Positions 23,298-56,457 of a stretch of DNA of 64,000 bases are shown here, piece after piece. The notes beneath the pieces were generated by a model, which worked only from the letters and a program-made list of their open reading frames with translations, searched no databases and was not told where the DNA came from. The position numbers and the translations under genes are program-made. Source of the stretch: Cetobacterium somerae. Its GTDB lineage: Bacteria; Fusobacteriota; Fusobacteriia; Fusobacteriales; Fusobacteriaceae. The DNA lies in assembly GCF_022430525.1 (NCBI RefSeq), contig NZ_CP092520.1, forward strand, positions 558,001 to 622,000. Direction: 5' to 3'. The stretch's first letter is position 1. Each line of letters begins with the position of its first letter.

Positions 23298-24494
23298 ATG
23301 TTCACACACACATTTAATATGGCAGAAACTTTAGCAATAGCAGTTTGTTTGTTATTAATTGGAAGATGGATTAAAGGAAAAGTATATTTCTTTGAAAAAT
23401 TCTTTATACCGGCTCCCGTTATTGGAGGAGTTATATTTTCTATTGTTTCTCTAATTGGTTATAATATGCAACTTTTTGTTTTTGATTTTGATGGTTCATT
23501 AAAAAATCTTCTAATGGTAGCTTTTTTTACCACAATTGGATTTTTAGCAAGTTTAAAAATGCTAAAAAAGGGTGGTGTTCAAGTTTTTACTTTTTTACTT
23601 GTAGCCGTTATACTTGTTGTTATCCAAAACGTTGTTGGTGTTTCTTTAGCAAAAGTATTTAGTTTAAATCCTTTAATTGGAATCGCTGCTGGCTCTGTTC
23701 CTCTTACTGGAGGTCACGGAACCTCTGGAGCTTTTGGTCCTGTTCTTGAAGCTGCTGGTGCTACTGGTGCTATGTCTGTTGCAATCGCTTCAGCAACTTT
23801 TGGATTAGTTGCTGGATGTCTAATTGGAGGCCCAGTTGGAAAAAGACTTATGGCAAAACATAATTTAAAATCTCCTAGAGAAGTAGAGATGTTTCTTGAT
23901 GGTAATGAAGACCCTTCTGATACAAAATTACTTTTAAATGAAGATTTATTATTTAGAGCTATTGTTTATATTGTTCTAGCTATGGGAATTGGTGGTTTTA
24001 TAACACCGTTAGCTAAAAATCTAGGAATTGTTCTTCCTGTATATATCGGTCCCATGATTGTTGCTGCAATTATAAGAAATATCGCTGATGGAGCTAAGAT
24101 AGAGATTCCATTGAATGCAATTAATGTTGTTGGTAATATTGCATTACAACTTTTCTTAGCTATGGCATTGATGTCTATGAGACTTTGGGAATTAGCTGCA
24201 CTAGCTATTCCACTTGTAGCGATTCTTTTAGCACAAAAAGTCGTTATGGCTTTATATGCATATTTTGTAACATTTAGAGTTATGGGAAAAGATTATGATG
24301 CTGCGGTTATGGCTGTTGGACATTGTGGATTCGGAATGGGAGCTACTCCAAATGCTATGGCTAATATGGAATCTTTTACAGCAGCAAACGGTCCTTCTCC
24401 CACAGCATTCTTTGCCCTACCATTAGTTGGATCTCTTTTCATAGATTTTGTTAATGCATCAGTTATAACAGTCTTTGTTAATATGTTTTCTTAA
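23298..24494 (+). CDS. gltS: Sodium/glutamate symporter
   Basis: This 398-residue membrane protein matches GltS: a start with FNMAETLAIAVCLLLIGRW, the first inner loop FFIPAPVIGG, and the two re-entrant repeats VPLTGGHGTSGAFGP and GHCGFGMGATPNAMANM. It imports glutamate with Na+. The N-terminal half is linked to the C-terminal half by a hydrophilic segment (about 190-215). AGGAGGAAAATT precedes the ATG. Fusobacteria ferment glutamate, so a high-capacity importer is expected, and glutaminase is encoded 5 kb away. Confidence 0.95.
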   Translation: MFTHTFNMAETLAIAVCLLLIGRWIKGKVYFFEKFFIPAPVIGGVIFSIVSLIGYNMQLFVFDFDGSLKNLLMVAFFTTIGFLASLKMLKKGGVQVFTFLLVAVILVVIQNVVGVSLAKVFSLNPLIGIAAGSVPLTGGHGTSGAFGPVLEAAGATGAMSVAIASATFGLVAGCLIGGPVGKRLMAKHNLKSPREVEMFLDGNEDPSDTKLLLNEDLLFRAIVYIVLAMGIGGFITPLAKNLGIVLPVYIGPMIVAAIIRNIADGAKIEIPLNAINVVGNIALQLFLAMALMSMRLWELAALAIPLVAILLAQKVVMALYAYFVTFRVMGKDYDAAVMAVGHCGFGMGATPNAMANMESFTAANGPSPTAFFALPLVGSLFIDFVNASVITVFVNMFS

Positions 24495-32835: not shown

Positions 32836-32911
32836 TGGCGCTTCTTGCTGGGCTCGAACCAGCGACAACACGATTAACAGTCGTGCGCTCTACCAACTGA
32901 GCTAAAGAAGC
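32836..32911 (-). tRNA. tRNA-Asn (anticodon GTT)
   Basis: Minus-strand cloverleaf with GCTTCTT/AAGAAGC acceptor stem, CTGTTAA anticodon loop and encoded CCA. It is the last gene of the rRNA operon. Confidence 0.95.
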
Positions 32912-32923
32912 ACTTTTTTAAGA

Positions 32924-33037
32924 TTGGCAACTTCCTATCCTCCCAGGGGGCTGCCCCCCAAGTACTTTCAGCGTTTATGGGCTTAACTTCCAGGTTCGAA
33001 ATGTTACTGGGTGTACCTCCATAGCTATCGTTGCCAA
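32924..33037 (-). rRNA. rrf: 5S ribosomal RNA
   Basis: The complementary ends TTGGCAAC and GTTGCCAA close a 5S-like RNA of about 114 bases, with the CGAACCTGGAAGTTAAGCCC loop typical of 5S. It lies about 50 bases after 23S. Ends are approximate. Confidence 0.92.
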
Positions 33038-33088
33038 TCAATATTTATTTGTGTTCTTGAACACTTGAAACTATATAGTAGTATATTA

Positions 33089-36005
<2,917 letters not shown>

Positions 36006-36140
36006 TGTAATATAATTCATATTATTTAGACAGACTAACTACTCAATTTAAGATTGACTTAAAAATGAATTGTTAGTTAATTTAGAATATTTTCTCAATA
36101 TCTACTATATAGTTTCCAATGTCCAAGTTTGATAATGTTT

Positions 36141-36216
36141 TGGTGGAGATAAGCGGAGTCGAACCGCTGACCTACGCAGTGCAAGTGCGTCGCTCTCCCA
36201 ACTGAGCTATATCCCC
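36141..36216 (-). tRNA. tRNA-Ala (anticodon TGC)
   Basis: It sits in the 16S-23S spacer, with GGGGATA/TATCTCC acceptor stem, CTTGCAC anticodon loop and encoded CCA. Confidence 0.95.
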
Positions 36217-36267
36217 ATACTTACAAAGAACAGTATCAATCGAATAGAGAAAAAGTTAGTCTCCTTA

Positions 36268-37786
<1,519 letters not shown>

Positions 37787-37908: not shown

Positions 37909-37992
37909 TGGTGCGAGAGGAGGGACTTGAACCCTCACGTCGAAACGCCAGATCCTAAGTCTGGTGCGTCTGCCAATTCCGCCACCCTCGCA
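37909..37992 (-). tRNA. tRNA-Leu (anticodon TAG)
   Basis: An 84-base class II tRNA with a long variable arm, CTTAGGA anticodon loop and encoded CCA, about 120 bases upstream of 16S. Confidence 0.95.
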
Positions 37993-38017
37993 GATGTTTT
38001 TTATTTTAATATTCTTA

Positions 38018-38093
<76 letters not shown>

Positions 38094-38098
38094 GTATA

Positions 38099-38183
38099 TG
38101 GTGGTGAGAGAAGGATTCGAACCTTCGAAGGCAGAGCCGTCAGATTTACAGTCTGATCCCTTTGGCCGCTCGGGAACCTCACC
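38099..38183 (-). tRNA. tRNA-Tyr (anticodon GTA)
   Basis: An 85-base class II tRNA with long variable arm, GGTGAGG/TCTCACC acceptor ends, CTGTAAA anticodon loop and encoded CCA. Confidence 0.95.
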
Positions 38184-38185
38184 AT

Positions 38186-38260
38186 TGGTACCCCGTAGGG
38201 GAATCGAACCCCTGTTTATAGAGTGAAAATCTATTGTCCTTACCACTGAACGAACGGGGC
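38186..38260 (-). tRNA. tRNA-Glu (anticodon TTC)
   Basis: Minus-strand cloverleaf with GCCCCGT/ACGGGGT acceptor ends, TTTTCAC anticodon loop and encoded CCA, two bases from tRNA-Tyr. Confidence 0.95.
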
Positions 38261-38269
38261 AAAACTTTT

Positions 38270-38343
38270 TGGCTGGGGTGGCTGGATTCGAACCAACGCA
38301 TGACGGAGTCAAAGTCCGTTGCCTTACCGCTTGGCGACACCCC
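38270..38343 (-). tRNA. tRNA-Gln (anticodon TTG)
   Basis: Minus-strand cloverleaf with GGGGTGT/CACCCCA ends, CTTTGAC anticodon loop and encoded CCA. Confidence 0.94.
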
Positions 38344-38347
38344 ATAA

Positions 38348-38425
38348 TGGTCGGAATAGCAAGATTCGAACTTGCGGCCCCCTGCTCCCAAGGCAGGTGC
38401 GCTACCGGACTGCGCTATATTCCGA
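38348..38425 (-). tRNA. tRNA-Pro (anticodon TGG)
   Basis: First gene of the tRNA-rRNA transcript, with TCGGAAT/ATTCCGA acceptor stem, CTTGGGA anticodon loop and encoded CCA. Confidence 0.95.
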
Positions 38426-38466
38426 CTTATTTAGTTTTGCATCAACGTTTGCTGCTGACAAAAATA

Positions 38467-38495
38467 ATAGTACCATAATTTTTAAATAATGTCAA
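38467..38495 (-). promoter_or_regulatory. Promoter of the tRNA-rRNA operon
   Basis: Minus-strand TTGACA (38495-38490) and TACTAT (38472-38467) are 17 bases apart and 42 bases before tRNA-Pro. It is the only good promoter before the cluster and points away from the rep gene. Confidence 0.7.
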
Positions 38496-38834
38496 CAAAC
38501 TTTTTTTATTTTTTTGAATTTTTTTATTTTTTATCTTAATACATATAATTAAAGTAGTTTTACGTTATTTATATAAAAAATATTTAGAAAATAATTTAAA
38601 TAAAAGTGTAAAAAATTAATTTTTTAAAATAATATTATAATATTGATAAATTAGTTGGATATTATTACATTTGAATATAATTTTATATTTTATTTTTTTT
38701 AAATATATATTTAGAAGATTTAATAATTATAGTTTAATTTTGAATAATTTATAAAGATATAAAAACAATATACTTTCGATTTGTTTCGTTTTAAAATATA
38801 AAGAATAAGTCTTATATATTAAATTAATAAAAGA

Positions 38835-38875
38835 TTGTTTATAGTTGTTTTAGTTGTTTATAGTTGTTTATATTG
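38835..38875 (+). repeat. Four short direct repeats in the AT-rich origin region
   Basis: TTGTTTATAG (38835), TTGTTTTAG (38845), TTGTTTATAG (38854) and TTGTTTATAT (38864) lie head to tail, about 90 bases left of the first iteron. They resemble AT-rich repeats found at strand-opening sites. Confidence 0.5.
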
Positions 38876-38960
38876 TTGTAAAGTAAAAAATAAAAATAGA
38901 AGATGCTTTTAATATAGATAAAATAAGGCTTGATAAGAAATTATAAATAAAATTTAATGA

Positions 38961-39066
38961 CCGCAGATGTTGTATATATATATCCACTAGTGTTGTATTA
39001 GTATGTCCGTAGATATTGTATATAAAAGCCATTAATGTTGTATTTTAAAAGCCATTAATGTTGTAT
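38961..39066 (+). repeat. Five forward 15-bp iterons with 22-23 bp period
   Basis: Copies start at 38961, 38984, 39007, 39029 and 39052. Consensus is CCRNTARTGTTGTAT: CCGCAGATGTTGTAT, CCACTAGTGTTGTAT, CCGTAGATATTGTAT, CCATTAATGTTGTAT (twice). The 22-23 bp spacing places them on the same helix face, as in Rep-binding plasmid iterons. Confidence 0.8.
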
Positions 39067-39157
39067 AAAAAAAAGTTTACAAAAATGTCCATTTGTATAG
39101 ACTAATTAAATGAAAAAATTTATTAATCTTAATTAAAGTAAGAAAAACAACAAAATA

Positions 39158-39254
39158 ATACAACACTAATGGTAAAAAAAGTTGAAAAAAAGCTTTTTTT
39201 ATTGTAAAATATACAGCATAAGAGGATAAAAAAATAAATATACAGCATTAAAGG
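39158..39254 (-). repeat. Three reverse-oriented iterons at the rep promoter and ribosome site
   Basis: Reverse copies are ATACAACACTAATGG (39158-39172), ATACAGCATAAGAGG (39211-39225) and ATACAGCATTAAAGG (39240-39254). The last includes the AAGG of the rep ribosome site, so Rep binding here would affect its own expression. Confidence 0.65.
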
Positions 39255-39264
39255 ACTGGTGAAA

Positions 39265-41271
39265 ATGAAAAAAGTAAAAAGATTTGATATTCCTATGAAT
39301 CAAGTTATTGATACAGGTCCAAGTGAAATAGTTGAAAAATTTTTAGATGTTTCTGAAATTGAAAATGAAAAAAGTCATAGTCTAGTTAGAATAGATATAA
39401 ATATGATTGAATATCCACTATTTACGAAAAGTACAAGTAAGAAAAAAAATCAAATAATAAGATATTTTTTTAATAGATCAAAAGAAGCATATATTCAGGT
39501 CAATCCTACATCTGGAGATTATATTCCAGGAGAACTTGAAGAAAGAGTATTTATAGCTTTATTAAAAATAATGAGAGATAAGAGATATCACAATACTTTT
39601 TATACAACAATAAGTGAGATTTTAACAAGCATGGGAATTGCACAAGAATCATTTAAGGGATTTTATGGAAGAATTTCAAAAGCATTAATAAGATTATCAC
39701 AAACAAGTTATACGTTTAAGAATTCTTTATACTCCAATAAAATTAAAGGGATTATTGAAGAACAAATTAATACAAATATTATGAATATTCATATGATATC
39801 CTTAAAACAGGCCCAAGAATCAGAAAAAGAATTATTTACTGATAGAAGAATAAAAGAAGTAATAAAAGTATCAATATCAGAACATTTTTATGATAATATA
39901 ATAAGAAAAGGTTATTTGGTATATGATTCTCAACTACTTTTAAGTATGGATAACCCAATTACAAGGGCATTATATATGCTTATTAATAAATTAAGATTTA
40001 ATAGAATGTACATAAAAGTTCTTTCAATAAACTTAATTAAAAGAATCCCTTTAAGTGAGAATATTCAAAAAATTGGAAGAACTATAAAGGTTATTGAAAA
40101 GAGCTGTCAAGAATTGAAAAAAATGAGTTTAATAGCAGATTATGCAATTATTAAAAATAGTAAATGGATTGAATCTGAATTTGAATTTTATTTTAATGAA
40201 TCACACAATGAGTTAAAACAATCATATTTTTATGATGATAAAAATCATTTTGATAATTTACTAATAACTCATACAGATAGCGGAGTAGATTTACCAAACG
40301 ATGGAAACAAACATTTTGAAGCTGTAAAGGCTGAAACTGTGGATAGAATTCCAACTAATGAAAAATTAGAAGAAATTTTAAAAATACTACCGTCTAAAGC
40401 TAGGGAATTAAAGACACTACCAAAAGTTATTAAAGATGGAATAAGACAGTACGGATTTGAACATATTAAATTAGTATCCGAATATATAAAAGTACAAAAA
40501 GTAAGTAATATTAGAAGTTATATGATACAAGCTTTATCAAAAGGCTGGGCTGAAGATTATATACAACAGAAGAAAAAAAATACAGCACCTAAGGTCAATA
40601 ATGAAGATTTGAAATTAATGAATTTAGATATAGAAGTTCCAAAATCTTTGGAAAATGGGTTAGAAATAGAAAAATTCTTAACAAGAATTACATTGGAAGA
40701 AAAAGAAAAAATAGAAAAAGAAGCATATAAAGATTATATAAAAATGTGTGGAGTAGAGGGAAAAATACAAAAAATGGCCTTTACTGCAGCTAAAGACAAA
40801 ATTGTAAAAGATTATTTAGATAAAAATTTGAAAAAATATACAATAGAAGAGGATAAAAAAGAAAGTATCGTCTTAGAAAGTTCAGTTATTGATGAAAAAG
40901 AAGTATTAAATGAAATAAATACAACACAAACGTCGATAAATAACTATATACAAGAGATTGAGATAATAGAAGAAAAAATAGATACAATACAAGTGGCCAA
41001 AAAAGAAATTAAATCAATTATAGAAATAAATACAGCAGATGTGGCCAATATAGATAAAAATATTGAAGTTAAAAAAATATATAAAAATATGTCAATGTTT
41101 CAGTTAGATATTTTAGATATTTTAGAAGGAGAAAATATAAAAGAAGTTAATAAAATTATTCGATTATTAGGAATAACTAAATTTTTTGAGGGAGAATTAG
41201 GAAATTTACATGTTATTTTAGAATATAATGAAGATGAAGAAAGTTTAATAAAAATAAAACCTTTAAAATAA
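39265..41271 (+). CDS. rep: Plasmid-type replication initiator protein
   Basis: I start this 668-residue protein at ATG 39265 because AAGGA lies nine bases upstream; a GTG six bases earlier is possible but too close to it. The N-terminal 310 residues (IEYPLFTKST, YIQVNPTSGDYIPGELEERVFIALLKIMRDKRYHNT cut here in two blocks, then DNPITRALYMLINKLRFNRM) look like the paired winged-helix initiators of the RPA/Rep_3 kind. The remaining 350 residues are charged, helical and low in conserved motifs. It should bind the iterons and open the origin. Three reverse iterons lie upstream and four iteron-like 15-mers lie within the coding region. I am sure of an initiator role from context, less so of the precise family. 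Confidence 0.72.
   Translation: MKKVKRFDIPMNQVIDTGPSEIVEKFLDVSEIENEKSHSLVRIDINMIEYPLFTKSTSKKKNQIIRYFFNRSKEAYIQVNPTSGDYIPGELEERVFIALLKIMRDKRYHNTFYTTISEILTSMGIAQESFKGFYGRISKALIRLSQTSYTFKNSLYSNKIKGIIEEQINTNIMNIHMISLKQAQESEKELFTDRRIKEVIKVSISEHFYDNIIRKGYLVYDSQLLLSMDNPITRALYMLINKLRFNRMYIKVLSINLIKRIPLSENIQKIGRTIKVIEKSCQELKKMSLIADYAIIKNSKWIESEFEFYFNESHNELKQSYFYDDKNHFDNLLITHTDSGVDLPNDGNKHFEAVKAETVDRIPTNEKLEEILKILPSKARELKTLPKVIKDGIRQYGFEHIKLVSEYIKVQKVSNIRSYMIQALSKGWAEDYIQQKKKNTAPKVNNEDLKLMNLDIEVPKSLENGLEIEKFLTRITLEEKEKIEKEAYKDYIKMCGVEGKIQKMAFTAAKDKIVKDYLDKNLKKYTIEEDKKESIVLESSVIDEKEVLNEINTTQTSINNYIQEIEIIEEKIDTIQVAKKEIKSIIEINTADVANIDKNIEVKKIYKNMSMFQLDILDILEGENIKEVNKIIRLLGITKFFEGELGNLHVILEYNEDEESLIKIKPLK
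40580..41044 (-). repeat. Iteron-like sites inside the rep coding region
   Basis: Reverse-oriented copies are ATACAGCACCTAAGG (40580-40594), ATACAACACAAACGT (40919-40933), ATACAATACAAGTGG (40982-40996) and ATACAGCAGATGTGG (41030-41044). They fall in the poorly conserved C-terminal half of Rep. Confidence 0.5.
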
Positions 41272-41274
41272 TAG

Positions 41275-41289
41275 ACATTGGTGTTGTAT
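41275..41289 (+). repeat. Iteron-like site just after rep
   Basis: ACATTGGTGTTGTAT, forward orientation, starts four bases after the rep stop codon. It matches the iteron core TGTTGTAT exactly. The rest of 41290-41395 is AT-rich with nothing else seen. Confidence 0.5.
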
Positions 41290-41395
41290 AAAAGATTACT
41301 AATAAAATGATATTAAAAGAATTAAATCCAAATACTAGTTTTAAATTATTTGTATATAGGATTTATATTATTTAATTATTTTATTCTAAAATAAA

Positions 41396-41435
41396 AAATA
41401 ACCCAAGAAGTTTTTTATAGCTTCTTGGGTTATTT
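41396..41435. terminator. Bidirectional terminator between rep and the partition operon
   Basis: AAATAACCCAAGAAG and CTTCTTGGGTTATTT form a 15-bp perfect stem with a 10-base loop; a T-rich tail is present on the minus strand. Confidence 0.85.
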
Positions 41436-41457
41436 AAATAGTTGTTTAAAAGTATAA

Positions 41458-41715
41458 TTACTCAGTAATAGATAAAATATAAGATATTCTTTCAGAAGAA
41501 AGAGTATATTTATAAACTTTTTCATCACCTTTAGGTGTTTTTATAAGAATATCAAAATTACCTTCAGATACTTCTGACATTTTTAAAATATCAAAATTAT
41601 CAATATCTAAGTCTTCAGATATATTATCTAAAAAATCATCCTCAATTTCAAATTCAAAATATTCGTTATTATGTTCAATAACATAAAAAAAATCTACAAA
41701 ATTAAATAGTTTCAT
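41458..41715 (-). CDS. Small acidic protein downstream of parB
   Basis: This 85-residue protein (MKLFNFVDFFYVIE...) is strongly acidic and has no signal or membrane segment. I do not recognise it. It starts 20 bases after the ParB-like stop, behind AAAGGAATAAT, and ends before the shared terminator, so it is the third gene of the partition operon. Its position suggests a role linked to replicon maintenance, but nothing in the sequence shows it; a small plasmid-housekeeping protein is one possibility. Confidence 0.65.
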   Translation of the reverse strand: MKLFNFVDFFYVIEHNNEYFEFEIEDDFLDNISEDLDIDNFDILKMSEVSEGNFDILIKTPKGDEKVYKYTLSSERISYILSITE

Positions 41716-41735
41716 ATTATTCCTTTCTTGATTAG

Positions 41736-42479
41736 TTAGTTTAGTTTTTCAATTTCAATAAGTAAGCTTTTAATCTCTTTGTTGAGAAGCTCAATTTTTT
41801 CATATACTGTTTTTGCTTTATTTGAATCTAAAGTTGAAGATTCTACTTTGTTTTCAATGAGAGTGGATATATTAGAGTTTAATTTATTGAATAATTTTTC
41901 AATAGAATCAAATTCTGAAACTTTAGGAGATTCGTTTTTTAAAGTATTTTTAAGAATAATATATTCTTTTCTAGTTTTTATTTGCTTATTTAAAACTGCA
42001 TTAATTAAATCCTTATTTGCATTAGGAGCAGAAATTTCATAAGTTAATGATAACGGAAGGGTTTCAAAATAAAATTGATCTTCTGACGTAAGACAATTAT
42101 TTTTTATAAATTTAAAACGATTTATTAATCTTTCAGCACTTTTTTTACCAATTTTCATATGCTCTAACCAAATTGAAAAAGTTCCATTTTTATGATTTGC
42201 ATATTTTTCGTTTGCTTCATTTAGTATTTCCCCAGCTTTAGTATGATAATTACTTTTAGCTAAGTTTAAAAGAGATTCATATTTTAATAAATCATTTTTC
42301 ATTTCTAAATCTTGTATATCTTCATAATTAAATAAAACTTCATTATCAGGTAGAAAATCCTTTTCAATAACAGTTATTTCAAACTCTTTAGATTCAATAT
42401 TTTGTTTAACTGGAGATTCTTTTTTTTTGAAAGAATCTTGTTTTAATCTATCTAAAACATTAATTTTTTTATTAATCAT
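41736..42479 (-). CDS. parB: ParB-like centromere-binding protein (DUF3102-like HTH)
   Basis: I start this 247-residue protein at ATG 42479 (MINKKINVLDRLKQ), which overlaps the parA stop by eight bases and has GGGGG upstream. It lacks the GERR/CTPase motif of canonical ParB. The middle (about 90-160) contains LAKSNYHTKAGEILNEANE and WLEHMKIGKKSAERLINRF, like the DUF3102 helix-turn-helix proteins. The C-terminal 40 residues look like a coiled coil (TVYEKIELLNKEIKSLLIEIEKL). With ParA it should segregate the replicon; the likely binding site is the 29-bp repeat array. The ParB assignment rests mainly on context. Confidence 0.65.
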   Translation of the reverse strand: MINKKINVLDRLKQDSFKKKESPVKQNIESKEFEITVIEKDFLPDNEVLFNYEDIQDLEMKNDLLKYESLLNLAKSNYHTKAGEILNEANEKYANHKNGTFSIWLEHMKIGKKSAERLINRFKFIKNNCLTSEDQFYFETLPLSLTYEISAPNANKDLINAVLNKQIKTRKEYIILKNTLKNESPKVSEFDSIEKLFNKLNSNISTLIENKVESSTLDSNKAKTVYEKIELLNKEIKSLLIEIEKLN

Positions 42480-43188
42480 TAATAATTCCCCCAATAATTT
42501 CACCATATAAACTTTGTAATTCTTCAGCTTTTTTAGATTGAGTTTCCCAGACTGTTTTGCCTTTTTCTGAAAGTTGTTCTTCAATAACACTTTCTGGAAT
42601 AGGATTTGTTAATGTAACACCTGTATCACTAAAAAAGTTAGATAGATTTTGGAAGTATTCTCTTGAGATTTTAGTATTTCTATATAAATTAGGAACGATT
42701 TGAGTTATTTTATTTCCTTCAGCTTTTTCTATTAATCTTGTAATACCAGCAGTACTTAACTTATCAAGTTTGATAGGAACAATAATTTCATCAGTAATTT
42801 CTAAAATAATATCATTAAGTACATTAAAAACAGGAGCACAATCAACAATTATAAAATCATAATTATCTTTTAATAAATTAAAAGTATTTCTGATTTTACT
42901 TTTTAAATTTATTCCAAAAATATCTGTTTCAACAGGAAAATAGTCTAGATTTTCTCTGATTTTTATTTTTATTTCTTCACCATTTTGAACAAAAGATTTA
43001 AAACCTTTACCACCTTCGAACCATCCACCTAAAAGTATTAAACTGTCATTTTGTGCATCTGAAGTAATTAGGGCAGTTTTAAAGTCTAACATAGCAAGAC
43101 CATGTGCAATATTTTTTGATAAAGTTGATTTTCCAACTCCACCTTTGTTATTTTTTATAGTTATTATTTTCCCCATTATTAACGCCAC
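42472..43188 (-). CDS. parA: ParA-family partition ATPase
   Basis: This protein of about 238 residues has the deviant Walker A motif KGGVGKST (residues 15-22 from the GTG start), the Walker B-like DFIIVDCAP and a PIKLDKLSTAG stretch. It lacks an N-terminal HTH, which places it with type Ib or chromosomal-type ParAs. ParA ATP cycling moves replicons apart on the nucleoid. The start is uncertain: GTG 43188 or ATG 43176 (MGKIITIKNN), since the GGAGG at 43214-43210 is about 20 bases away from the first. The gene overlaps parB by eight bases, and its promoter abuts the repeat array. Confidence 0.88.
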   Translation of the reverse strand: MALIMGKIITIKNNKGGVGKSTLSKNIAHGLAMLDFKTALITSDAQNDSLILLGGWFEGGKGFKSFVQNGEEIKIKIRENLDYFPVETDIFGINLKSKIRNTFNLLKDNYDFIIVDCAPVFNVLNDIILEITDEIIVPIKLDKLSTAGITRLIEKAEGNKITQIVPNLYRNTKISREYFQNLSNFFSDTGVTLTNPIPESVIEEQLSEKGKTVWETQSKKAEELQSLYGEIIGGIIND

Positions 43189-43229
43189 TAAAAGAAGTAA
43201 CGCTTTTCACCTCCTTTTTTAATAATTAT

Positions 43230-43258
43230 AGTATAATTTAAAAATGGAAAATAATCAA
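43230..43258 (-). promoter_or_regulatory. Promoter of the parAB operon
   Basis: Minus-strand TTGATT (43258-43253) and TATACT (43235-43230) are 17 bases apart. The 16-bp inverted repeat begins at the -35 box. Confidence 0.65.
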
Positions 43259-43291
43259 TTTTTTTATCCATATTTTATGGATAAAAAAATT
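43257..43291. promoter_or_regulatory. Perfect 16-bp inverted repeat between parA promoter and repeat array
   Basis: AATTTTTTTATCCATA (43257-43272) pairs with TATGGATAAAAAAATT (43276-43291) around a 3-base centre. It touches the parA -35 and the first 29-bp repeat. It may be an operator for ParA/ParB or part of the partition site. Confidence 0.6.
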
Positions 43292-43641
43292 AAAACACGA
43301 CAATTTGTCGCAATAAAATTAAAACACGACAATTTGTCGCAATAAAATTAAAACACGACAATTTGTCGCAATAAAATTAAAACACGACAATTTGTCGCAA
43401 TAAAATTAAAACACGACAATTTGTCGCAATAAAATTAAAACACGACAATTTGTCGCAATAAAATTAAAACACGACAATTTGTCGCAATAAAATTAAAACA
43501 CGACAATTTGTCGCAATAAAATTAAAACACGACAATTTGTCGCAATAAAATTAAAACACGACAATTTGTCGCAATAAAATTAAAACACGACAATTTGTCG
43601 CAATAAAATTAAAACACGACAATTTGTCGCAATAAAATTAA
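43286..43641. repeat. Twelve tandem 29-bp repeats with CGACAA-T-TTGTCG core (probable parS)
   Basis: The core CACGACAATTTGTCGCAAT recurs every 29 bases, with repeat units anchored at 43292, 43321, 43350 and so on to 43611, essentially without mismatches. Each unit holds a 6+1+6 perfect palindrome and an AT spacer. The array lies directly upstream of parAB, where plasmid centromeres are found. There are no unique spacers, so it is not a CRISPR array. Confidence 0.85.
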
Positions 43642-43680
43642 ACATATGTTATAATAGAAATAAAAAAAGAGGTAATTGTA

Positions 43681-50541: not shown

Positions 50542-51549
<1,008 letters not shown>

Positions 51550-56212: not shown

Positions 56213-56396
56213 AATCGGATGAAGGTATAGGGAGAGCGCCAATTTGGCCACCGAAGAAGTGAATCTTTCAGGTTAGTTGAAAAACTTGAGGACCTATACT
56301 GGACGAGCCTCTGGAGAGACTCTATGAGCACCGAAGGAGCAAACCCAAATATAAATTATATTTGGACTAAACTCTCAGGTAAAAGGACAGAGGAAT
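56213..56396 (+). promoter_or_regulatory. Tandem glycine riboswitch
   Basis: Two gcvT-type aptamers lie in series. The first has GGGAGAGCGCCAA, CACCGAAGAAG and TCTTTCAGGT; the second has CTGGAGAGACTC, GCACCGAAGGAGCAAACCC, AACTCTCAGGT and AAAAGGACAGAGG. Both glycine-binding cores and the linker are present. It is followed by a terminator hairpin (56458-56488) and an AGCS symporter gene. Control of a glycine/alanine transporter, not gcvT, is expected to turn uptake down when glycine is high; the switch direction is not proven from sequence. Confidence 0.93.
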
Positions 56397-56457
56397 TATG
56401 CAATAAAAGTTTTTTTGTATTAAACTATTTTTTGTGTATAATTCTTTTTTAATTCCA

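Follow-up and report, generated by a model that had tools for sequence, protein, structure and literature searches.

A predicted plasmid-type origin and partition module on a probable Cetobacterium chromid, and a related Rep at the dnaA position of the main chromosome

Our analysis of a window of 64,000 nucleotides from the genome of Cetobacterium somerae, a bacterium of the fish gut, points to a compact module at positions 38425-43642, comprising an AT-rich (adenine-thymine-rich) region with repeated putative initiator sites (iterons), a predicted initiator gene (rep), partition genes and a centromere-like array, as the origin and partition centre of a chromid of about 0.7 Mb, in a cell whose main chromosome very probably also starts without DnaA. 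We consider this explanation as a whole highly probable. It draws on the presence, conservation and synteny of the parts, on sampled GC (guanine-cytosine) skew, on the failed detection of dnaA and on the homology of two Rep proteins, all of which are read directly from the sequences. With slightly less assurance, we also consider it likely that the Fusobacteriaceae, a free-living family, lost DnaA throughout, that it was replaced in place by a plasmid-derived Rep with an iteron origin, that the Cetobacterium chromid is run by a Rep of a second subfamily and that all large replicons of the Cetobacterium cell are therefore Rep-driven, with chromosome replication wholly independent of DnaA.

The window occupies positions 558001-622000 of contig C2 in the source genome (G000; 2,973,411 bp in seven contigs), and this contig is a replicon separate from the main chromosome, as an earlier sequence-only reading of the same DNA had supposed. 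Specifically, for C. somerae CS2105-BJ, C1 (1,904,440 bp) is the published chromosome and C2 (704,842 bp) is “plasmid 1”, which the accessible part of that report describes solely as a plasmid (PMC10268390). A close relative, plasmid p1 of C. somerae strain ceto (NZ_CP143320.1), is a circle of 664,419 bp that encodes a Rep 94.8% identical to that of the window and has a matching rRNA (ribosomal RNA) operon arrangement and tRNAs (transfer RNAs; region L128), and in two further relatives the module lies on separate contigs of 609,639 bp (G006) and 459,208 bp (G009). Judging from its size, the 687,705-bp circle reported for strain BAA-474, at 117x coverage versus 176x for the chromosome (PMC12243525), probably bears the same Rep-Par module. 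GC skew on C2, sampled in stretches of 8 kb, is of the origin type at the module. Apart from the local exceptions named below, its values are positive from 597 kb via the contig ends up to 200 kb and negative between 300 and 597 kb, with one near zero at 250 kb, such that the sign turns at the module (597 kb) and turns back near its antipode (245 kb). Within the window, the flip falls at 38-40 kb, i.e., at the module. Separately, the deposited chromid record seems to have been opened inside a prophage, as base 1 is flanked on either side by genes that look, by eye, like phage structural genes (C2 ends, L127/L113), and NZ_CP143320.1 carries a second annotated “replication initiation protein” (457494-458726; 410 amino acids [aa]), perhaps a relic of another plasmid.

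The module retains every element that had been listed from the letters alone, namely an AT-rich stretch, regular iterons, a Rep of 668 aa, ParA, an unusual ParB partner and a 12-copy array. The AT-rich origin region (38425-39264) spans 840 bp between the last tRNA gene and rep and is 83% AT. It contains five iterons on the plus strand (38956-39075), 22-23 bp apart, each with a unit like CCATTAATGTTGTATA and a core TGTTGTATA (at most one mismatch) at 38968, 38991, 39014, 39036 and 39059; together with a sixth sense core at 38874, outside the series, this makes six in the region, versus a shuffle mean of 0.69 and a maximum of 3. A single inverted iteron lies at 39158-39172 (minus strand; C2:597158-597172), and another single copy sits directly behind rep (41276-41289, plus strand; core at 41282). 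Genome-wide, the three exact matches to CCATTARTGTTGTAT are all within the module, and the five with one mismatch are distributed as one in the module, three elsewhere on C2 and one on C1. The six genus relatives that were examined (G004, G005, G006, G009, G013 and NZ_CP143320.1) all have iteron cores upstream of rep too, mostly with the same 22-23-bp spacing and each time in numbers above the respective shuffle maximum.

The rep gene itself (39265-41271, plus strand, with an ATG at 39265) encodes a predicted initiator with a predicted two-winged-helix core, at residues ~44-317, and a long C-terminal extension. Its structural model, with a mean pLDDT (predicted local distance difference test) of 64.6 and core blocks mostly at 74-91 with dips to 43-58, best matches domains 2-3 of RctB (Foldseek E 1.4e-5; Z 13.9, rmsd [root-mean-square deviation] 5.2, 247 residues aligned), followed by Pi (Z 11.1) and RepE (Z ~10), and a two-winged-helix fold of the RctB/RepE/Pi type is therefore predicted. 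By sequence, the set of 18 chromid-type Reps to which it belongs (A2) matched Pfam RPA (PF10134, Replication initiator protein A) in one member and Rep3_N in two, and the PHROGs matches for Rep proteins were to families of unknown function or were weak. Of 12 genus genomes, 10 have an orthologue that is at least ~80% identical (79-95% across eight aligned relatives). In the C-terminal part, residues 361-398 show a weak match to the HRDC domain, a DNA-binding domain of helicases, and such a match was seen in 11 of the 18 A2 members (best E 6.4e-4).

Beyond the putative origin, the other half of the module reads as a partition system of the ParABS kind, with a Walker-type ParA ATPase and arrays whose core is conserved across species; a centromere role for the arrays is the probable one. 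The ParA ATPase (42472-43188, minus strand; 238 aa) has the P-loop KGGVGKST and matches AAA_31 (E 7.9e-24) and phrog_164 (E 3.1e-33). Its ParB-like partner (41736-42479, minus strand; 247 aa) belongs to PHROG 1733 (E 4.8e-14), a family of unknown function, and gave nothing above threshold in a Pfam search; PDB sequence searches with this protein and with the profile of the chromosomal Rep described below returned no useful match. An acidic protein of 85 aa (41458-41715, minus strand) ends the par operon. All three proteins are kept in the six relatives, where the order Rep, 85-aa protein, ParB-like protein, ParA and RluA is invariant. The array (43286-43642) consists of 12.3 copies of a 29-bp unit, 100% identical, around the core CGACAA-N-TTGTCG, and sites with this core lie between ParA and RluA in every one of the six: eight to ten in G006, G009 and NZ_CP143320.1, seven around a run of N in G004, three in G013 and one in the fragmented G005. 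The unit drifts between species as a block while the core stays, measuring 29 bp in the window, G006 (9.3 copies) and NZ_CP143320.1 (8.3 copies), 37 bp in G009 (9.9 copies) and 39 bp in G013 (2.8 copies), with complete identity within each array. Homogenised arrays with a fixed palindrome are the look that would be expected of a centromere bound by the ParB-like protein.

Judged by the chromid criteria of Harrison et al. (2010), as described in an excerpt of PMC13342612, C2 is a separate replicon with plasmid-type replication and maintenance genes (by sequence and predicted fold), chromosome-like composition, a core gene and conservation across the genus, and the proposal that this is a chromid origin in a member of the Fusobacteriota is thus upheld. 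The composition of C2 equals that of the chromosome: sampled GC content is 28.7% on C1 (152 kb) versus 29.0% on C2 (117 kb), and the dinucleotide distance between the two replicons (0.012) does not exceed that between two halves of the C1 sample (0.014). The core gene is nrdD, for anaerobic ribonucleotide reductase, which is present as one copy per genome in all 12 genus genomes (above the cut-off in 11 and partial in G012). In the three that are well assembled, it is located on the chromid contig (G000:C2, G006:C2 and G009:C3). The gene tables of NZ_CP143320.1, covering all but ~7.5 kb, further list coaBC, glmS, glyA, lgt, murI, minCDE, nrdAB and nrdDG, among others; of these, nrdD is the one for which further copies were looked for.

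The rRNA and tRNA genes beside the module carry less weight than had first been given to them. An rRNA operon (32836-37781, minus strand; Rfam and ARAGORN) does lie to the left and is read away from the origin, as stated in the sequence-only reading, and holds 16S rRNA (36269-37781), tRNA-Ala (36141-36216), 23S rRNA (33088-36004), 5S rRNA (32922-33038) and tRNA-Asn (32836-32911). The adjacent tRNA cluster, also on the minus strand, has six members (Leu-TAG, Thr, Tyr, Glu, Gln and Pro; 37909-38424) instead of the seven counted earlier; tRNA-Ala and tRNA-Asn are part of the rRNA operon, and a tRNA-Arg lies further left. All of these genes are read away from the module. These genes had been put forward as essential ones and hence as the hallmark of a chromid, a claim that we reject, given that C1 holds a complete rRNA operon (region L141) and tRNA-Ala(TGC) in five copies, and that all anticodons in the six-tRNA cluster are represented there as well; as they have counterparts on the chromosome, they are weak evidence for a chromid. 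Provisionally, tRNA-Arg(TCG) and tRNA-Arg(CCT) appear on C2 alone among at least 83 tRNAs listed, from 150 of 299 candidates scored.

One could argue that C2 is instead a large and old but dispensable megaplasmid, for which “chromid” would be too strong a word. It was deposited as a plasmid, its rRNA operon and tRNA-cluster anticodons recur on C1, and pyrG, a chromid gene that we tried as a core gene and rejected, is present in just 6 of the 12 genus genomes. Further, the largest plasmid reported for C. ceti MaLMAid0298 is 182,596 bp, and the chromid is therefore absent from some species named Cetobacterium. Against this stand the single nrdD, on the chromid wherever assembly is good, the listed coaBC, glmS, glyA, lgt, murI, minCDE and nrdAB (some of which may have further chromosomal copies), the chromosome-like composition and the retention of Rep in 10 of 12 genomes, and we regard a dispensable replicon as unlikely. 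That the module is the relic of a plasmid integrated in a single chromosome, with a skew switch there by coincidence, is scarcely credible: the genes flanking the module do look chromosomal, but C2 was published as a separate replicon, has a circular 664,419-bp relative and separate contigs in G006 and G009, and its sampled skew is symmetric by itself. Several observations nevertheless weigh against a chromid origin as we describe it. The window Rep has no Pfam replication-family match, and confidence in the models is modest (mean pLDDT 64.6 for it and 57.6 for the chromosomal Rep discussed below). No chromid Rep orthologue was found in 2 of the 12 genus genomes (G011, 93% complete, and G014, 82%). 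Relatives of this Rep in G003 and G035 have no adjacent par genes and, by the same core search, no clear series of iteron cores upstream, and the 840-bp origin region of the window contains three antisense cores as well. The skew within the window is also uneven, as the left arm has positive or near-zero values at 16-20 and 22-26 kb and the right arm negative ones at 42-44 kb and, slightly, at 62-64 kb. Finally, 5 of 61 family genomes are without a full-length chromosomal Rep, a point that concerns the wider proposal for the main chromosome, to which we turn now.

In C. somerae, a search with PF00308, the AAA+ domain of DnaA, found no DnaA on any contig, with 13 of 14 controls positive. The refuting condition set in the sequence-only reading, a join of the contig to a dnaA-bearing chromosome, thus does not apply here. 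Our survey of 98 Fusobacteriota genomes (61 Fusobacteriaceae and 37 others), in which a full DnaA was taken as a PF00308 match above 150 bits, extends this to the family: none of the 61 Fusobacteriaceae has such a match, the best one there reaching 47.4 bits, as against 36 of the 37 others, the exception (G086) being 82% complete. PF08299, the DNA-binding domain, gave the same division (0 of 61 at E 0.05 versus 36 of 37), and a profile built from nine sister-family DnaAs reached at most 36 bits in the Fusobacteriaceae, in 5 of the 61 genomes, with no match in C. somerae. The weak PF00308 matches, of up to 47 bits, cover a partial domain in frames mostly of ~150-300 aa and were rejected as DnaA because PF08299 and the sister-family profile find no full-length partner for them.

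At the place where dnaA would be expected, the Fusobacteriaceae have a Rep-like gene. The gene order in sister families is mnmE-jag-yidC-yidD-rnpA followed by dnaA-S4-recF-dciA-gyrB (on one contig in G063, split between the ends of a presumably circular contig in G062 and G084, the latter without a dciA match, and with some genes not found by the search used in G097 and G001). In five Fusobacteriaceae (G003, G015, G026, G038 and G048), a Rep-like gene of ~580-640 aa stands between those neighbours instead of dnaA, with two extra genes between it and S4 in G003. The corresponding gene of C. somerae starts at base 1 of C1, with mnmE-jag-yidC-yidD-rnpA and rpmH ending just ahead of it, and S4-recF-dciA-gyrB relocated 46 kb away. 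A profile of 11 such chromosomal Reps (A1) has a match in 59 of the 61 Fusobacteriaceae and in 1 of the 37 others (G062, on a second contig), and 56 of the 59 are full orthologues by score (at least 680 bits); the incomplete cases are fragments at contig ends (G051 and G056), cousins only (G060) and no match, with recF at contig edges (G039 and G045). In the named genome collection, all 22 relatives of the chromosomal Rep are fusobacterial, including Cetobacterium, Propionigenium maris, Psychrilyobacter, Fusobacterium mortiferum and F. gastrosuis. The F. nucleatum open reading frame of “low identity to DnaA” may be this Rep as well. In G009, a separate contig (C6:11918-18032) holds a second copy that scores like a chromosomal Rep and a degenerate copy with 14 stops in its main piece, either a duplication or an assembly artefact.

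The chromosomal Rep is likewise a putative initiator with iterons. Nine of the 11 A1 members match Pfam RPA, and the best structural match of its model (mean pLDDT 57.6) is RctB (Z 15.3, rmsd 3.5, 238 residues). Six copies of ATTATTG(A/T)TA(A/G)TATACA, all in one orientation, lie between rpmH and rep, at a spacing of 95-105 bp for five of them and with the last following after 53 bp, and together with the gene they form the candidate chromosomal origin at the dnaA position (C1:1903929-1904440 and C1:1-1851). These six are all of the exact matches in the genome, with three one-mismatch copies elsewhere. Family-wide, the gapped motif ATTATTGNNNATATACA (at most two mismatches) had 106 sense and 6 antisense occurrences in 22 upstream regions of 600 bp, whereas 200 shuffles gave 1.1 (maximum 5). 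The weak regions were G044, L230 and L233, with one or two sense matches each. Five loci on the same contigs as other regions were left out of this count (L223, L229, L232, L235 and L238, with G003, G047, G044, G015 and G048, respectively), and the regions include close relatives (G025/G026, G037/G038 and G000/L218), hence they are not independent. GC skew on C1 passes from -0.30 to +0.30 at the chromosomal Rep, with all eight samples positive from base 1 to 708 kb, a value near zero at 800 kb and all 11 samples negative from 900 kb on (two of them merely -0.05). In the single-contig genome G037, it passes from -0.29 to +0.18 at Rep, with one discordant sample at 0.90 Mb. Another candidate for the C1 origin, an AT-rich gap that lies upstream of recF and holds two AAAAAGTGTACAT repeats, was dropped once the skew switch and the iterons were found at the C1 ends.

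The two Reps of C. somerae are distant relatives. The chromosomal Rep aligns with the chromid Rep over 239 columns at 21% identity (hhalign 96.7%, E 3.2e-10) and bears no relation to DnaA (hhalign 0.2%), and the two Rep profiles separate cleanly. A tree of 51 proteins sets apart 18 chromosomal Reps and eight Cetobacterium chromid Reps, each group by a fully supported branch. Next to the chromid Reps come copies from G002, G003 and G035 and then Cetobacterium plasmid Reps; long branches make the tree unsure elsewhere. With no DnaA detected, and a Rep of the same fold with iterons and a skew switch in its place, chromosome and chromid therefore probably both start from Reps, of different subfamilies, and the main chromosome very probably does so without DnaA, from a distantly related Rep with that fold, which across the Fusobacteriaceae takes up the ancestral dnaA position and has conserved iterons of its own upstream. 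Other large contigs, of 870 kb to 1.15 Mb (G041:C2, G042:C2, G043:C4, G054:C3 and G059:C1), likely independent chromids, carry Reps nearer the chromosomal subfamily; hence large replicons seem to have arisen at least twice.

Two alternatives for the main chromosome need to be weighed. A DnaA too diverged to recognise, or fallen into assembly gaps, could exist in the Fusobacteriaceae, in which case the Rep at the dnaA position would be a bystander. The AAA+ matches of up to 47 bits could be taken to favour this, but PF00308, PF08299 and the sister-family profile all fail in 61 of 61 genomes, while the two Pfam searches detect DnaA in 36 of 37 other Fusobacteriota, and the gene at the dnaA position is unrelated to DnaA; we find a hidden DnaA very improbable. 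Alternatively, the chromosome could start from many sites with no dedicated initiator, as in free-living cyanobacteria, where dnaA loss accompanies multiple-site replication (according to the accessible text of PMC7198777), and the Rep would then serve otherwise. This, too, we regard as improbable, if marginally less so, since the skew switch at Rep is kept in the Fusobacteriaceae (C1 and G037) and the Rep-linked iterons are conserved across genera.

Taking both replicons as Rep-started, the sequences suggest the following mechanism. The chromid Rep, as a two-winged-helix initiator, would bind the iterons, open the AT-rich stretch and recruit the helicase without DnaA; replication would proceed bidirectionally from the module to the terminus opposite; and ParA and the ParB-like protein would segregate the origin via the arrayed CGACAA-N-TTGTCG sites. 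The chromosomal Rep is likewise envisaged as an initiator that would bind and melt DNA and load the helicase.

The chromid origin itself belongs to an already known kind of system. RctB is the initiator of Vibrio chromosome 2, a replicon with core genes, iterons and a par system beside its origin, in cells whose chromosome 1 uses DnaA. The Cetobacterium chromid resembles Vibrio cholerae chromosome 2 as a second replicon with core genes, iterons, an adjacent par system and an initiator whose best structural match is RctB domains 2-3, but it differs in that no DnaA was found in C. somerae, where the main chromosome has its own Rep, and in an identity to RctB of ~12%. With RepE of mini-F and Pi of R6K, the fusobacterial Reps share the two-winged-helix core (Z ~10-11), upstream iterons and an AT-rich region, and the chromosomal Reps their PF10134 matches (9 of 11); unlike those, they have a long C-terminal extension and would work without DnaA, and one subfamily is a conserved chromosomal gene family-wide. 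Large second replicons in the phylum had rightly been pointed out in the sequence-only reading: chromosome II of Ilyobacter polytropus, in the same family, is 961,624 bp long and, according to a portion of its genome report, owes its rank as a chromosome to the two 16S genes that it carries (PMC3035301). The contig that we take to be this replicon (G041:C2) also bears a Rep of the superfamily, but, unlike the Cetobacterium chromid Rep, it is nearer the chromosomal subfamily, and the large replicons of Ilyobacter and Cetobacterium are therefore probably separate in origin.

The replacement of DnaA by Rep, on the other hand, appears to be a new way of chromosome initiation, as far as we could find; no report of an absence of DnaA or its replacement by Rep in fusobacteria turned up in the open-access literature, with most subscription journals and bioRxiv outside that search. 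Among free-living bacteria, DnaA is commonly regarded as universal, some cyanobacteria excepted (an excerpt of PMC7198777), and a chromosome is usually defined as the DnaA-driven replicon (the same part of PMC13342612 as above). The dnaA-less cyanobacteria are likewise free-living but fire from multiple sites, whereas the Fusobacteriaceae have a Rep with iterons at the dnaA position and a skew that switches there. If our explanation is true, a family with gut and oral bacteria starts its main chromosome by a plasmid-type initiator, in a natural takeover that has lasted through the whole family, and chromosome replication and plasmid replication are not sharply distinct in these cells. This would raise the questions of how the cell separates and times two Rep systems, how it loads the helicase when there is no DnaA and how it couples initiation to growth.

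Two RNA elements were also observed on the chromid. The Rfam family AaHKsRNA96, named for an Aggregatibacter small RNA, scored above threshold in both chromids, at 51417-51533 of the window (minus strand) and at 24025-24141 of region L128 (minus strand), with 51.6 and 46.2 bits, respectively; in NZ_CP143320.1, the match overlaps the end of siaP, of a sialic-acid TRAP (tripartite ATP-independent periplasmic) transporter. A glycine riboswitch lies at 56301-56400 of the window (plus strand; 57.3 bits).

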